25,153 bases of DNA, taken from IMG/VR virus record IMGVR_UViG_3300044516_000597, positions 1 to 25,153 of that record; one strand, written 5' to 3'. This document shows positions 13,692 to 17,506 of the stretch, in pieces (position 1 is the first letter of the stretch; every line of letters starts with the position of its first letter). The stretch is from a virus. Both the position numbers and the translations under genes were made by a program. The notes under the pieces were generated by a model. The model saw nothing but the letters and a program-made list of their open reading frames with translations. It was not told the origin of the DNA and searched no databases.

Positions 13692-13765
13692 GTTTCACCT
13701 AAATAATATTGCCCATCGCGATGCGTCAACATCCATGGGCTCTAATACTAACCAGGAGTATCAGC

Positions 13766-14314
13766 ATGGATATTTATTACGTTTACGCTTATATTAACAA
13801 ATCCACAAATCTTCCATATTATATTGGTAAAGGCAAAGGTAACAGAGCCTATTGCAAACATACCAATGTTTCCACCCCAAAAGACAAATCCAAAATTGTA
13901 TTCTTAGAAACAAATCTTACCGAAATAGGAGCTCTTTCTATAGAAAGAAGAATGATTCGTTGGTATGGTAGAAAACAATCTGGCGGCATACTTCTAAATC
14001 AATTAGAAGGGGGAGACAACCCTCCTTTGCACACAGGAAAAATAAGAAGCGAATCTCATAAAAAAGCAATATCTATTTCCAAAAAAGGTAAAAAGAGACC
14101 GGAATCTGATAGAAGAGCAATATCATTAGGAAAAATTGGCAAAAAGATAGGTCCAGCCTCGGAAAGCAGAAAACAAGCAATCTCACAAGCCAAAAAAGGT
14201 AAACGATGGTTCAAAAATAAAGAAGAAACCAAATGTGTTTGTTGTCTACCAAATCAAAAGCCAAAAAACTGGGTTCCTGGAATGATTAAAAAATCAAACA
14301 TCTCCAGTATTTGA
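13766..14314 (+). CDS. GIY-YIG homing endonuclease with NUMOD3-type repeats
   Basis: 182 residues from ATG 13766, which has AGGAG upstream; the longer frame from 13709 is unsupported. The N-terminus is the nuclease module: DIYYVYAYINKSTNLPYYIG then KGKGNRAY, with YIG at 19-21 and the conserved Arg at 27. E90 region is IERRMIRWYGRKQ. The C-terminal part has three NUMOD3-like DNA-binding repeats: HTGKIRSESHKKAISISKKG, KKRPESDRRAISLGKIGKK and PASESRKQAISQAKKGK, then a Cys pair (CVCC). A free-standing gene on the plus strand, opposite all its neighbours, between gp59 and a metallopeptidase/gp33. Its 3' end overlaps the metallopeptidase 3' end by 21 bases. Likely mobile by homing into alleles lacking it. 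Confidence 0.88.
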   Translation: MDIYYVYAYINKSTNLPYYIGKGKGNRAYCKHTNVSTPKDKSKIVFLETNLTEIGALSIERRMIRWYGRKQSGGILLNQLEGGDNPPLHTGKIRSESHKKAISISKKGKKRPESDRRAISLGKIGKKIGPASESRKQAISQAKKGKRWFKNKEETKCVCCLPNQKPKNWVPGMIKKSNISSI

Positions 14315-15257: not shown

Positions 15258-15662
15258 CTAATCCTTGATTGTGATTGTCGTGGGTTCGCCTTTGGTCATA
15301 TTATAGAGCGTAGAAGCATTAGAAGGATGGAGCCGAACGCAACCATGAGAAGCAGGACGCCCCAAATTACCTGTATGAGGAGTAGCGTGGATAGCAAATC
15401 CACCAGAAAAGAAAATAGAGTGTGGCATCGGCGCATTGTCATACTTCTTTGAATAGTGCATTAGATGATAAAAATAAGGATGAAAAGTTCCTGTTGGGGT
15501 GTAATAACCCTTTCTAGCAGTAGATACTGGCCACTGCTCGATCAACTCTCCATCTTGGTAAACAGACATAGACTGATGACGTTTAGAAACAACAACATGA
15601 TAATCTGCAAACGCTGAAGTTGAAATGAAAACTGCAGCGAGAACAATCAACAATCTTTTCAT
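15258..15662 (-). CDS. L,D-transpeptidase (YkuD family) with signal peptide
   Basis: 134 residues from the ATG at 15660-15662 (AGGA upstream); a longer frame into the previous gene is not supported. Residues 1-19 are a Sec signal peptide (KRLLIVLAAVFISTSAFA, cleavage after AFA). The catalytic core has GYYTPTGTFHPYF, FAIHATPHTGN (H92), and SHGCVRLHPSNA, with H106, C108 and R110 of the HGCVR motif. L,D-transpeptidases form 3-3 crosslinks or attach proteins to peptidoglycan, and are unusual in phages. The domain is small but intact. It could reinforce the wall, block superinfection, or time lysis. Next gene upstream is a 36-residue peptide and then tRNA-Arg. Confidence 0.9.
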   Translation of the reverse strand: MKRLLIVLAAVFISTSAFADYHVVVSKRHQSMSVYQDGELIEQWPVSTARKGYYTPTGTFHPYFYHLMHYSKKYDNAPMPHSIFFSGGFAIHATPHTGNLGRPASHGCVRLHPSNASTLYNMTKGEPTTITIKD

Positions 15663-15670
15663 AATATATC

Positions 15671-15781
15671 CTAGTGGTTGTGGTTCTGTTTCTTCCAGAT
15701 CCAAGAAGTTAAGCGTAATAGATTTTGGTGAATTGCATTAACGAAAGAACTATTCCAGAACCAGTGATTGTGTCTTGACAT
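15671..15781 (-). CDS. 36-residue His/Asn/Trp-rich small protein
   Basis: A short frame with a good ribosome site (TTAGGAGAACTAA before ATG at 15779-15781) and a stop TAG at 15671-15673, just before the ribosome site of the L,D-transpeptidase. Sequence blocks: MSRHNHWFWNSSFVNAIHQN and LLRLTSWIWKKQNHNH. It is amphipathic with four Trp residues and basic, possibly membrane-associating. It begins 17 bases after the tRNA-Arg 3' end, in a leader that also serves the transpeptidase gene. Not recognised. Confidence rests on the ribosome site and compact packing. Confidence 0.55.
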   Translation of the reverse strand: MSRHNHWFWNSSFVNAIHQNLLRLTSWIWKKQNHNH

Positions 15782-15797
15782 TTAGTTCTCCTAAGGA

Positions 15798-15874
15798 TGG
15801 CGACTCCGGTACGATTCGAACGTACGACCCCAAAATTAGAAGTTTTGTGCTCTATCCAGCTGAGCTACGGAGCC
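15798..15874 (-). tRNA. tRNA-Arg (anticodon UCU)
   Basis: 77 bases including an encoded CCA. Acceptor GGCTCCG/CGGAGTC with one G-T pair and discriminator G; D arm AGCTCAGCTGGATAGAGC; anticodon stem CAAAA/TTTTG with loop CTTCTAA, so the anticodon is TCT. T arm is GTACG-TTCGAAT-CGTAC. It would read AGA/AGG, which are common in this AT-rich phage and rare in many higher-GC hosts. A promoter lies immediately upstream and the preceding gene's terminator overlaps that promoter. Confidence 0.95.
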
Positions 15875-15883
15875 ATTATTAGT

Positions 15884-15912
15884 ATTATAACCCATCATGA
15901 ATGAAAAAGCAA
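15884..15912 (-). promoter_or_regulatory. promoter for tRNA-Arg
   Basis: Minus strand TTGCTT at 15912-15907, 17-base spacer, TATAAT at 15889-15884. Transcription would start near 15877, just before the mature tRNA 5' end (15874). The -35 lies inside the terminator hairpin of the upstream gene. Confidence 0.75.
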
Positions 15913-15933
15913 GTCTTTTGAAAGGAGACTTGC
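15904..15933 (-). terminator. intrinsic terminator after the 63-residue gene
   Basis: Minus strand stem GCAAGTCT (15933-15926), loop of nine, AGACTTGC (15916-15909), then TTTTT. It lies 15 bases after the stop of the gene at 15948-16139 and would also end transcripts coming through the tmRNA. Confidence 0.85.
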
Positions 15934-15947
15934 AGAACCTTTATTAT

Positions 15948-16139
15948 TTATTTCTTATCTACAAATTGTTTATAGGATTCAGCTAATTCGAAAATCTCAT
16001 CTTTTGTAGGAAAAGATGGCACAGCTGTGCTGATCTTTCGTTCATATAATTCAAGATCAGCGTGAAACTTTGCTTCCAAATATTCTCTTGCAGAAATTAG
16101 AAAATTAAATCTAAGTTCGTATGGTGATTGTTTATCCAT
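15948..16139 (-). CDS. small conserved T4-type phage protein, unknown
   Basis: 63 residues from ATG 16137-16139 with AAAGGAG upstream; the upstream in-frame extension runs through the tmRNA gene and is not coding. Sequence: SPYELRFNFLISAREYLEAK, then a variable middle, then PSFPTKDEIFELAESYKQFV. I recognise the pattern (PYELRFN...ARxYLE...FPTxxEIxxLAExxxxFV) as a frequent hypothetical protein in T4-type marine phages. It is fully helical by eye. Placed between tmRNA and tRNA-Arg, with its own terminator. Confidence 0.82.
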   Translation of the reverse strand: MDKQSPYELRFNFLISAREYLEAKFHADLELYERKISTAVPSFPTKDEIFELAESYKQFVDKK

Positions 16140-16159
16140 TTTAATACTCCTTTGTGTGT

Positions 16160-16515
16160 TGTGTGTATGCAACATGCTTCTGTTTCTAGGTGCAGTTGCC
16201 AAACCCAATGGATTATGCCGCTAGAGCATAAACTCCAAATGATGCATCATTATCGTTTGCATCTACGAGTTGCTTTCGAACTCCTTGAACCCTTACTACG
16301 CCCGTCGAATCCCTTTCACCCCCATCAAAGATACACAGTCGCTTCCCTTTTCTACAGACACATGGATTTGCGAAACCCCTCCGTTGTCTGTCTCCCTTCA
16401 ACGGTGCTATCCACTAATCCTGGACACCCTTGAAGCATTGGGCTATGTATCTATGGTGGAGGTGGTGGCATCGAAGCCACGTCCGTAACGTCTATGCTGT
16501 TCCTCTCAACGTTCT
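16160..16515 (-). ncRNA. ssrA: circularly permuted (two-piece) tmRNA
   Basis: Reading the minus strand, the acceptor piece comes first. A T-arm (GTGGC-TTCGAT-GCCAC) and acceptor strand CACCTCC-ACCA end at 16454. After a 130-base intervening segment the coding piece opens at 16323 with GGGGGTG and the hallmark GGGATTCGACGGG. GGGGGTG pairs with CACCTCC over 7 bp and gives G3-U70, the alanine identity pair. A GAGTT/AACTC hairpin (PK1-like) precedes the resume codon GCA at 16258-16260. The tag is ANDNDASFGVYALAA, stop TAA at 16213-16215. TTATGC/GCATAA forms the stem around the stop. CGTAGT of the coding piece can pair with GTTACG of the acceptor piece (helix P2). Only 74 bases separate the tag stop from the next ATG, too little for a one-piece tmRNA. 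Outer ends are approximate. The T loop appears one base short. Confidence 0.9.
16324..16453 (-). other. structured intervening segment of the permuted tmRNA precursor
   Basis: 130 bases between the CCA end (16454) and the coding-piece 5' end (16323). Its ends pair with each other: AGATACA (16452-16446) with TGTATCT (16335-16329), continuing the acceptor stem. Inside are two hairpins: CTTCAA/TTGAAG (16435-16396, with inner GGTG/CACC and TCCA/TGGA) and ACAGACA/TGTCTGT (16391-16354, with inner GGGTTT/AAATCC). It would be removed by RNase P and 3' processing to give two RNA pieces. Confidence 0.7.
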
Positions 16516-16526
16516 AAGCAAATTAT

Positions 16527-16652
16527 TTATTCTGTTGAAATTTGATTTTCAAACTCTTCTATCCAAGGATGAGGAGCTTCTATTTCTTTATCTTTAATGG
16601 CACGGATTTGACGTGCGGTCTCTGGCGAGACATTCGAAGAATTTAGCTTCAT
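16527..16652 (-). CDS. 41-residue frame overlapping the lipoprotein gene (uncertain)
   Basis: ATG at 16650-16652, stop TAA at 16527-16529, in a different frame from the lipoprotein gene and sharing 59 bases with it. Sequence: MKLNSSNVSPETARQIRAIK, then DKEIEAPHPWIEEFENQIST-E. Composition looks like a real protein (charged helix, PHPW). There is no clear ribosome site, so it may be translated by coupling, or be a displaced C-terminus of the lipoprotein after a frameshift. Its stop is close to the presumed tmRNA acceptor-piece start. Confidence 0.4.
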   Translation of the reverse strand: MKLNSSNVSPETARQIRAIKDKEIEAPHPWIEEFENQISTE

Positions 16653-16722
16653 CACTGACATTACAACCAGCGATACTAAAACTAAGAAACACCATTGCTA
16701 TTGCTATGTAAATCTTTTTCAT
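16594..16722 (-). CDS. small lipoprotein
   Basis: 42 residues, ATG at 16720-16722 with CCGGAG eight to nine bases upstream, stop TAA at 16594-16596. MKKIYIAIAMVFLSFSIAGC is a classic lipoprotein signal: Lys-Lys, hydrophobic stretch, lipobox SIAGC with C20 as the modified residue. The mature part is only about 23 residues (NVSDEAKFFECLARDRTSNP-CH) with two further cysteines. It starts inside the 3' end of the 95-residue gene. Size and context resemble outer-membrane spanin subunits (Rz1-type) or small entry-exclusion lipoproteins, but neither is shown. Confidence 0.65.
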   Translation of the reverse strand: MKKIYIAIAMVFLSFSIAGCNVSDEAKFFECLARDRTSNPCH

Positions 16723-16969
16723 TCTTATTCTCCGGATTATATTCGTGCTTTTCTACTTCTTCAATAGCCACAGAAAACCATTCTGTATTACCTTCACGAC
16801 GATACTGAAGATCCTGCATAGGAACCATTACCATCTGTTTAGTTTCCGGATGAACCATCATCTTAGGAAACATAACCATACGAATATCAGTAATTGGCTT
16901 CTTTTTTACCAAGCCACCTGTTGGCAAACCACTAGCAGCAATAGCGCCATCTGGTCCAAGAATACTCAT
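16682..16969 (-). CDS. hypothetical protein, 95 residues
   Basis: Not recognised. Gly-rich N-terminus (MSILGPDGAIAASGLPTGGL), then KKKPITDIRMVMFPKMMVHP and ETKQMVMVPMQDLQYRREGN, a Met-rich beta-like region, then TEWFSVAIEEVEKHEYNPEN and a polar tail. No signal peptide or membrane segment. Its ATG overlaps the stop of the upstream secreted-protein gene as ATGA, indicating coupled translation, and its end contains the lipoprotein start. Probably early, from the operon beginning at the 19.66 kb promoter. Confidence 0.75.
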   Translation of the reverse strand: MSILGPDGAIAASGLPTGGLVKKKPITDIRMVMFPKMMVHPETKQMVMVPMQDLQYRREGNTEWFSVAIEEVEKHEYNPENKNEKDLHSNSNGVS

Positions 16970-17334
16970 GTCTTTTGTCCTTTATACTTGTCAAGCAACT
17001 GAGAAAGAAACTCGATTGCTGAATCATTAAATGTAACGTCATTCAAAATACCAGTAACACAATACTGCTTTGCAGCCATAGCATTACCATCTGTCGCCTT
17101 ATCATACTCGACGATATACATATGACGATCTTTAGTCATCATAACTTCATGCATCTTATTACCAATTACACCGTTGTATAAAGTGACAAGAGCCTTCTCG
17201 TCAATAACCTTCATAAACTCTGCATTGGGATAGCATTTGATAACATCATCCGCCTTTGCCATATTATGCACGGTCATAAAACCAAGCACAAAAAAGAAAA
17301 TGGCGATCAAACATTCTTTAGTTCTGCTCATCAT
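16966..17334 (-). CDS. secreted/periplasmic hypothetical protein
   Basis: 122 residues, AGGAG before ATG at 17332-17334. N-terminal 28 residues are a Sec signal peptide: MSRTKECLIAIFFFVLGFMT then VHNMAKA, likely cleaved before DDVIKC. The mature domain (about 94 residues) has two cysteines (KCYPNAEF and KQYCVTG) that could form a disulfide. Blocks: VTLYNGVIGNKMHEVMMTKD and RHMYIVEYDKATDGNAMAAK. Not recognised. The export signal and the nearby lipoprotein and L,D-transpeptidase suggest a set of envelope-acting proteins. Confidence 0.78.
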   Translation of the reverse strand: MMSRTKECLIAIFFFVLGFMTVHNMAKADDVIKCYPNAEFMKVIDEKALVTLYNGVIGNKMHEVMMTKDRHMYIVEYDKATDGNAMAAKQYCVTGILNDVTFNDSAIEFLSQLLDKYKGQKT

Positions 17335-17506
17335 TATTCACTCCTGATATAGACTTCATCAATTTAATATCATAATCAATCAACCTAGAAAGAGCTTCGA
17401 TGGCATTCTCCTTACTAACTCCTCCAGCAATCTTATCTCTAGACCACATAACATACTTGATTAGCATATTAACGTCAAGTGCATTTTGATCCTTCAACTC
17501 ATTCAT
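17318..17506 (-). CDS. hypothetical protein, 62 residues
   Basis: Not recognised. Helical: MNELKDQNALDVNMLIKYVM, WSRDKIAGGVSKENAIEALS, RLIDYDIKLMKSISGVNNDE. GAGGGT lies upstream of ATG at 17504-17506, and the ATGA overlaps the stop of the 377-residue gene. Its 3' end overlaps the next gene start by 17 bases. No membrane segment or motif was seen. Confidence 0.75.
   Translation of the reverse strand: MNELKDQNALDVNMLIKYVMWSRDKIAGGVSKENAIEALSRLIDYDIKLMKSISGVNNDEQN

Follow-up and report, generated by a model that had tools for sequence, protein, structure and literature searches.

Does a T4-like phage encode its own ribosome-rescue RNA, and what occupies the segment that separates the two halves of its gene? 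These questions are raised by a 25,153-base virus record, analysed here over its whole length (hereafter the window), which is a fragment of a T4-like phage. PHROGs profiles identify baseplate wedge and hub, head closure, DNA end protector and tail tube proteins among the neighbours of the locus, together with a gp32-like single-stranded DNA-binding protein and a gp59-type helicase loader, and T4-like phages of cyanobacteria and Sinorhizobium are among the best rows of a tblastn search with gp32. A homing-endonuclease-like gene (13709-14314, plus strand; phrog_314, E 1.3e-12) adjoins the gp59 and gp32 genes; in T4, segG sits between genes 32 and 59, according to the portion of PMC2988022 available. 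Downstream of the tmRNA gene lies a tRNA-Arg (TCT) gene (15798..15874, minus strand), itself adjoined by an L,D-transpeptidase gene (YkuD, E 6.8e-21; 15258-15704, minus strand). Such a tRNA-Arg also adjoins the tmRNA gene in three related loci (L017, L031, L039) and the tag half in four others (L026, L027, L030, L047).

The circularly permuted tmRNA gene occupies 16514-16165 on the minus strand, as delimited with RF04321, RF01849 and ARAGORN. The original prediction, made from the sequence alone, was of a phage-encoded, permuted two-piece tmRNA of the alpha type, and it had proposed a comparison with Rfam covariance models. Using the curated cut-offs, cmscan matched RF04321 tmRNA_permuted to 16514-16213 (85.9 bits, cut-off 47, E 1.8e-15) and RF01849 alpha_tmRNA to 16556-16169 (55.9 bits, cut-off 50, E 3.4e-13), both on the minus strand, while ARAGORN calls a permuted tmRNA whose tag is ANDNDASFGVYALAA; together with the phage gene neighbourhood, these matches support the prediction. 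Its exclusion of a one-piece tmRNA stands as well, because the ATG of the next open reading frame, at 16139, leaves no room 3' of the tag (a longer version of that frame, with a TTG start, falls within the tmRNA). The rarity that it implied for phage two-piece tmRNAs does not hold. The window gene is a further example of a kind already published: 53 of 133 unique phage tmRNAs are two-piece in the available portion of PMC9004378. A blastn search with the window tmRNA against 50,697 phage records, at an E value of 0.01, returned no match.

The landmarks at 16454 and 16323 place an acceptor end, with T-arm, CACCTCC and ACCA, upstream of a coding piece that begins with GGGGGTG, in the order originally described. 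The acceptor half covers 16454..16514 on the minus strand (5' end approximate, from the RF04321 alignment and landmarks) and includes the D-loop region and a T-arm at 16465..16480, GTGGC-TTCGAT-GCCAC. Next come a 130-nt intervening sequence (IVS; 16324..16453), which holds no recognised gene and is presumably removed by processing, and the tag half (16165..16323, 3' end approximate, from the RF04321 and RF01849 alignments), with GGGGGTG, the landmark TTCGACGG at 16309-16302, the tag frame and a 3' stem. The tag half reaches approximately 16165, closing with a GCAAC/GTTGC stem, which corrects the first reading. As had been noted from the letters, the acceptor strands CACCTCC/GGGGGTG are complementary over 7 of 7 positions, all standard pairs with a single G-U at position 3, and end in CCA. 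The resume codon, a hydrophobic tag end in AA and the stop are all present in the predicted frame (16213..16260), on which ARAGORN and the landmarks agree. Two-strand folding was dropped as support for pairing between the halves, since 59 of 200 shuffled acceptor halves bind at least as well. The T-loop of 6 nt departs from the common 7-nt trait, which does not define the family, and RF04321 still matches; this unusual loop could weaken folding.

An assembly error is unlikely, because the gene recurs unchanged in six further loci from four further IMG/VR records (L002, L004, L006/L082, L007/L081). Partial identities to two other loci point to a composite origin. L009, whose tag is AANDNAPFEGYALVA, is identical to the window over 261 nt, comprising the acceptor half (within the 77 nt that end at 16454), the IVS and the opening 54 nt of the tag half. 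L012, in which the T-loop has 7 nt, matches the tag and 3' end without a difference over 99 nt, and no alignment was obtained for its 5' part. By these identities, the window gene is a mosaic joined just before the tag, with the recombination junction at 16265..16269 (minus strand). Such a mosaic shows that recombination shuffles tags and intervening segments among phages.

To place the gene among viral relatives, gp59 relatives in viral contigs yielded 65 loci and a tmRNA pattern 25 stretches, three of them overlapping. ARAGORN found permuted tmRNAs in 56 of 88 loci, amounting to 28 distinct genes, 25 of which have tags ending in AA; the odd long tags of L066, L069 and L070 may belong to another type. 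Of note, the permuted tmRNAs at L069:554-1090 and L070:5356-5907 have tags of 29-30 residues, unlike the rest. When 23 related records were searched whole with RF04321, 17 scored over the cut-off and 21 at E <= 0.001. A tmRNA gene upstream of gp59 is present in many phages of diverged sequence. A tag-half pattern search gave at least 137 distinct tag halves (at least 182 hits in 204 loci). A script requiring a 7-nt T-loop found the acceptor half for 123 of the 137 listed, all paired at 7 of 7 positions. Allowing other loop lengths added five genes: the window type, L009, L122 and L184, with 6-nt loops, and L127, with a longer arm. The loop is therefore 6 nt long in four and 7 nt in 123 of the 128 listed distinct genes with an acceptor half; L277/L278 also have 6-nt loops. 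The remaining nine tag halves lie at contig ends or, once (L077), correspond to a false tag. Acceptor strands compensate across loci (CACCTCC/GGGGGTG, CGCCTCC/GGGGGCG, CGTCTCC/GGGGACG, CCGGTAC/GTGCCGG), and 134 of the 137 listed tag frames end in AA, although the pattern fixed their start and not their end. The middle of the tag, FGVY, which had been singled out as unusual, turns out to be normal in this clade, where FG(V/A)Y or FEGY is found.

The IVS shows a common boundary and a variable interior. A closing helix, defined as beginning 0-4 nt past ACCA and stopping 2-7 nt short of the tag half, reaches a score of 7 or more in 109 of the 123 listed distinct viral genes, as against 3.2% of mononucleotide shuffles; in the window its strands are at 16443..16452 (5') and 16329..16338 (3'), on the minus strand. 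IVS length ranges from 29 to 520 nt among these 123 genes, and the interior varies among relatives. On this comparative evidence, the IVS is a replaceable cassette bounded by the closing helix. Eight of the 14 exceptions to the helix belong to one group (L068/L071/L073), in which the IVS is open in one frame and a peptide is shared. In the members of this group (L068, L071, L073, L075, L076, L077, L078 and L080), the IVS frame is open with the acceptor half and no helix scores 7; their peptides are related around (W)YYTE.EW......LPP(D/E)R, and the L073 peptide has no match in phage records.

The window IVS might also be more than a spacer, its structured RNA being itself selected for a regulatory or processing role. 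Its fold is unusually stable (-43.5 kcal/mol, z -3.84, with none of 200 shuffles as stable), and the same IVS type, with a shorter hairpin and a different tag, is found in L162 and L152, where three pairs are changed on both sides. However, there are only two distinct versions, that of the window and L009 and that of L152 and L162, so that this covariation is slight support; moreover, the interiors are unrelated in other relatives and no Rfam family matches the window IVS. We regard such a selected RNA as improbable, if less so than the two alternatives considered below for the tmRNA itself.

We consider it very probable that the window encodes a functional-looking phage permuted tmRNA of the alpha type, processed by the host and acting with SmpB in ribosome rescue and tagging. 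In the course of events that we infer, the gene would be transcribed as a single precursor, which host tRNA-processing enzymes would cleave at the end of the acceptor half and at the start of the tag half, with the 130-nt IVS being discarded. The two pieces would remain held together through the acceptor stem, and the RNA, charged with alanine as G3-U70 suggests, would enter stalled ribosomes with host SmpB. The ribosomes would be released and ANDNDASFGVYALAA appended, directing the unfinished protein to host proteases; the phage might benefit from ribosomes being kept free during infection. Host SmpB is assumed because no SmpB match was found in the 23 phage records, which are fragments (the control matched in 10 of 14 genomes). 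As for transcription signals, sigma-70-like matches near 15700-17400 number 11, versus 4.8 in shuffles, and none of them lies directly upstream of the acceptor half. A AATAAATA box is found at 16531, and TATAAATA occurs in the window at chance level (2 found versus 2.13 expected).

Alternatively, the RNA might be a decoy, made and charged so as to disturb trans-translation in the host, as for phage DS6A, whose tag-less tmRNA offers a precedent (PMC11915505, in the portion available). The 6-nt T-loop of the window, L009, L122, L184 and L277/L278 would fit an altered function of this kind. The DS6A form is nevertheless unlike that of the window, in which the tag frame is intact, as the AA endings of nearly all listed viral frames also argue, and we hold a decoy to be very unlikely. 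Least probable, by a little, is a decaying relic of a host ssrA acquired by chance, for although the window gene scores lower than any of the 88 bacterial matches listed at 96 bits or more, has a 6-nt T-loop and is mosaic, both its acceptor pairing and its tag frame are preserved, phage relatives over the RF04321 cut-off score 85.9-121 bits, and the gene persists upstream of gp59 in many diverged phages with acceptor strands that change yet stay paired.

The relatives of the window gene show what the IVS can harbour. In four loci (L026, L027, L030 and L047), the acceptor half at first seemed missing; its end turned out to lie 520 nt upstream of the tag half, with the IVS filled by a complete gene for a 154-aa HNH endonuclease with its own ribosome-binding site (L027:4679-5143; also L205-L209). 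The protein matches the PHROGs homing endonuclease family phrog_655 (E 6.8e-14), and Pfam HNH just below the cut-off (21.0 versus 21.4 bits, E 0.00037). The window IVS has no such HNH gene. A scan for relatives of the endonuclease confirmed at least 511, of which the best 80 were analysed. In 30 of these 80, which account for 17 distinct proteins, tmRNA halves flank the gene, with IVSs of 464-642 nt, and L228 is an eighteenth case, recognised by eye. The acceptor strands of endonuclease-bearing tmRNAs pair at 7 of 7 positions across many different sequences. An alignment reaching at least residue 144 is seen in 29 loci of the best 80; the script places 27 of these in a tmRNA, L228 is in one by eye, and in L210 the relative lies just upstream of the tmRNA and not inside it. 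Only three of the other 51, with shorter matches, are in a tmRNA. The C-terminal part of the protein thus goes with residence in the tmRNA (27 of 29 long matches versus 3 of 51 shorter ones). In L277/L278 the relative is just upstream of the tmRNA, and the relatives of S-SKS1 and RB11-B are sited elsewhere, outside the tmRNA. For 11 of the 17 distinct proteins the stop codon ends a single base short of the tag half, and for one 12 bases short of it; the frame enters the tag half in the other five.

An occupied allele, L211 (IVS of 492 nt with the endonuclease), can be compared with the free alleles L157, L162 and L152 (IVSs of 70, 110 and 110 nt): the tag halves are 94.5-97% identical, the acceptor halves 89-90% and the downstream DNA 82-83% over approximately 600 nt. 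Free alleles of this tmRNA, which elsewhere bears the endonuclease, include some with the IVS type of the window. In the first 72 codons of the endonuclease, pN is lower than pS in 66 of 66 pairs from 12 genes. As a plain count, 13 of 18 leaders have the T4-late-promoter motif TATAAATA within an inverted repeat that precedes the ribosome-binding site, and the leaders of L213 and L218 are 10-11 nt only. In T4-like phages, the late transcripts of I-TevI, segB and mobE are described as lacking the hairpin that masks the site of ribosome binding (PMC2988022, in the portion available). From the distribution, the allele pairs and the leader arrangement, we infer that the tmRNA-resident HNH endonuclease may be a homing one. 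On the whole, we find it likely, with less assurance than for the tmRNA itself, that the phage tmRNA IVS serves as a splice-free home in which an HNH lineage mainly resides, homing between the tmRNAs of T4-like phages, that small peptides are also lodged there and that the window carries a gene-free allele.

Regarding such peptides, 13 distinct loci (L150, L160, L178, L188, L192, L200, L201, L131, L165, L120, L133, L138 and L171) encode a hydrophobic peptide of 38-50 aa (MKNPLV..VSKWMFKAYILWSICADI...), membrane-like by eye, whose frame ends at the end of the IVS. Seven copies of the 38-aa version, which has no match in phage records, give a mean pN/pS of 0.17, with pN lower than pS in all 21 pairs, and codon comparison thus indicates that the peptide is under purifying selection. 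Other IVSs hold single candidate frames: L181/L189 (DUF2061-like, L189 below the cut-off), L034, L111, L114 and L088. At L034:5712-5918, a 68-aa frame with its own ribosome-binding site is flanked by ACCA on one side and, on the other, by the hairpin in front of the tag half.

As far as our searches reach, the HNH-in-tmRNA arrangement is held by phages and not by bacteria. In 299 Pseudomonadota genomes, 108 exceed the RF04321 cut-off. The listed matches scoring 96 bits or more number 88, in 86 genomes, and extend over 193-332 nt, compared with 302 in the window; none of these 88 has an insert of endonuclease length. Weaker matches reach 402 and 436 nt (G262 and G093; 46.4 and 48.5 bits). Short bacterial spans are not proof of absence, because genes that bear the endonuclease get low scores with RF04321 (28 bits for the L026 type). 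An endonuclease scan of the genomes of 84,980 species returned four distant relatives, and no tmRNA halves were found at the two of them compared (L285 and L286).

In comparison with known systems, the window gene shares with the permuted tmRNAs of Alphaproteobacteria (RF04321, RF01849) the order of the halves, the acceptor pairing, G3-U70, a tag of the ANDN... type and the 3' AACAGAA region, and differs from them in being phage-borne and in having a 6-nt T-loop and a folded 130-nt IVS. The T4-like Methylophilales phage Melnitz (L089; described in the available portion of PMC9004378) has the same half order and 7 of 7 pairing, with the tag ANDNYVPVDYALAA and an IVS of 142 nt. The tmRNA annotated in its record carries a glutamine riboswitch at its 3' end, a feature that the window lacks; among 40 records, the riboswitch was found in one, Melnitz itself, outside its IVS. 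The window thus adds one more phage carrying its own ribosome-rescue RNA, and what is new is the IVS evidence from the related loci, namely the closing helix, the cassette-like interior and the resident protein genes. A survey of 97,179 tmRNA sequences counted 11,946 permuted ones and 79 from bacteriophages, and its available portion mentions, as IVS contents, one tRNA-Ala and one repetitive element, with endonucleases only in group I introns (PMC11915505). Among the matches listed in the open-access literature, none describes, in its title or abstract, a protein gene within the IVS of a permuted tmRNA. The HNH genes of the related loci resemble the free-standing and intron-borne homing endonuclease genes of T4-like phages (mobE, segB, I-TevI) in their leaders, where an inverted repeat with a late-promoter motif precedes the ribosome-binding site (PMC2988022, in the portion available); they differ in residing in the IVS of a split RNA gene, where neither splicing nor a split protein is needed. 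The group I intron endonuclease in a tmRNA T-loop, as presented in the available portion of PMC11915505, is likewise a mobile gene inside a tmRNA. That case needs self-splicing, whereas the endonucleases of the related loci occupy the part that two-piece processing already discards. If this reading is true, processing would render an insertion into the IVS harmless, as self-splicing does for introns, and the residence of an endonuclease might be one factor that maintains the permutation of the gene after its origin. The tmRNA IVS would then be a third kind of residence for homing genes within a useful gene, in addition to introns and split proteins.
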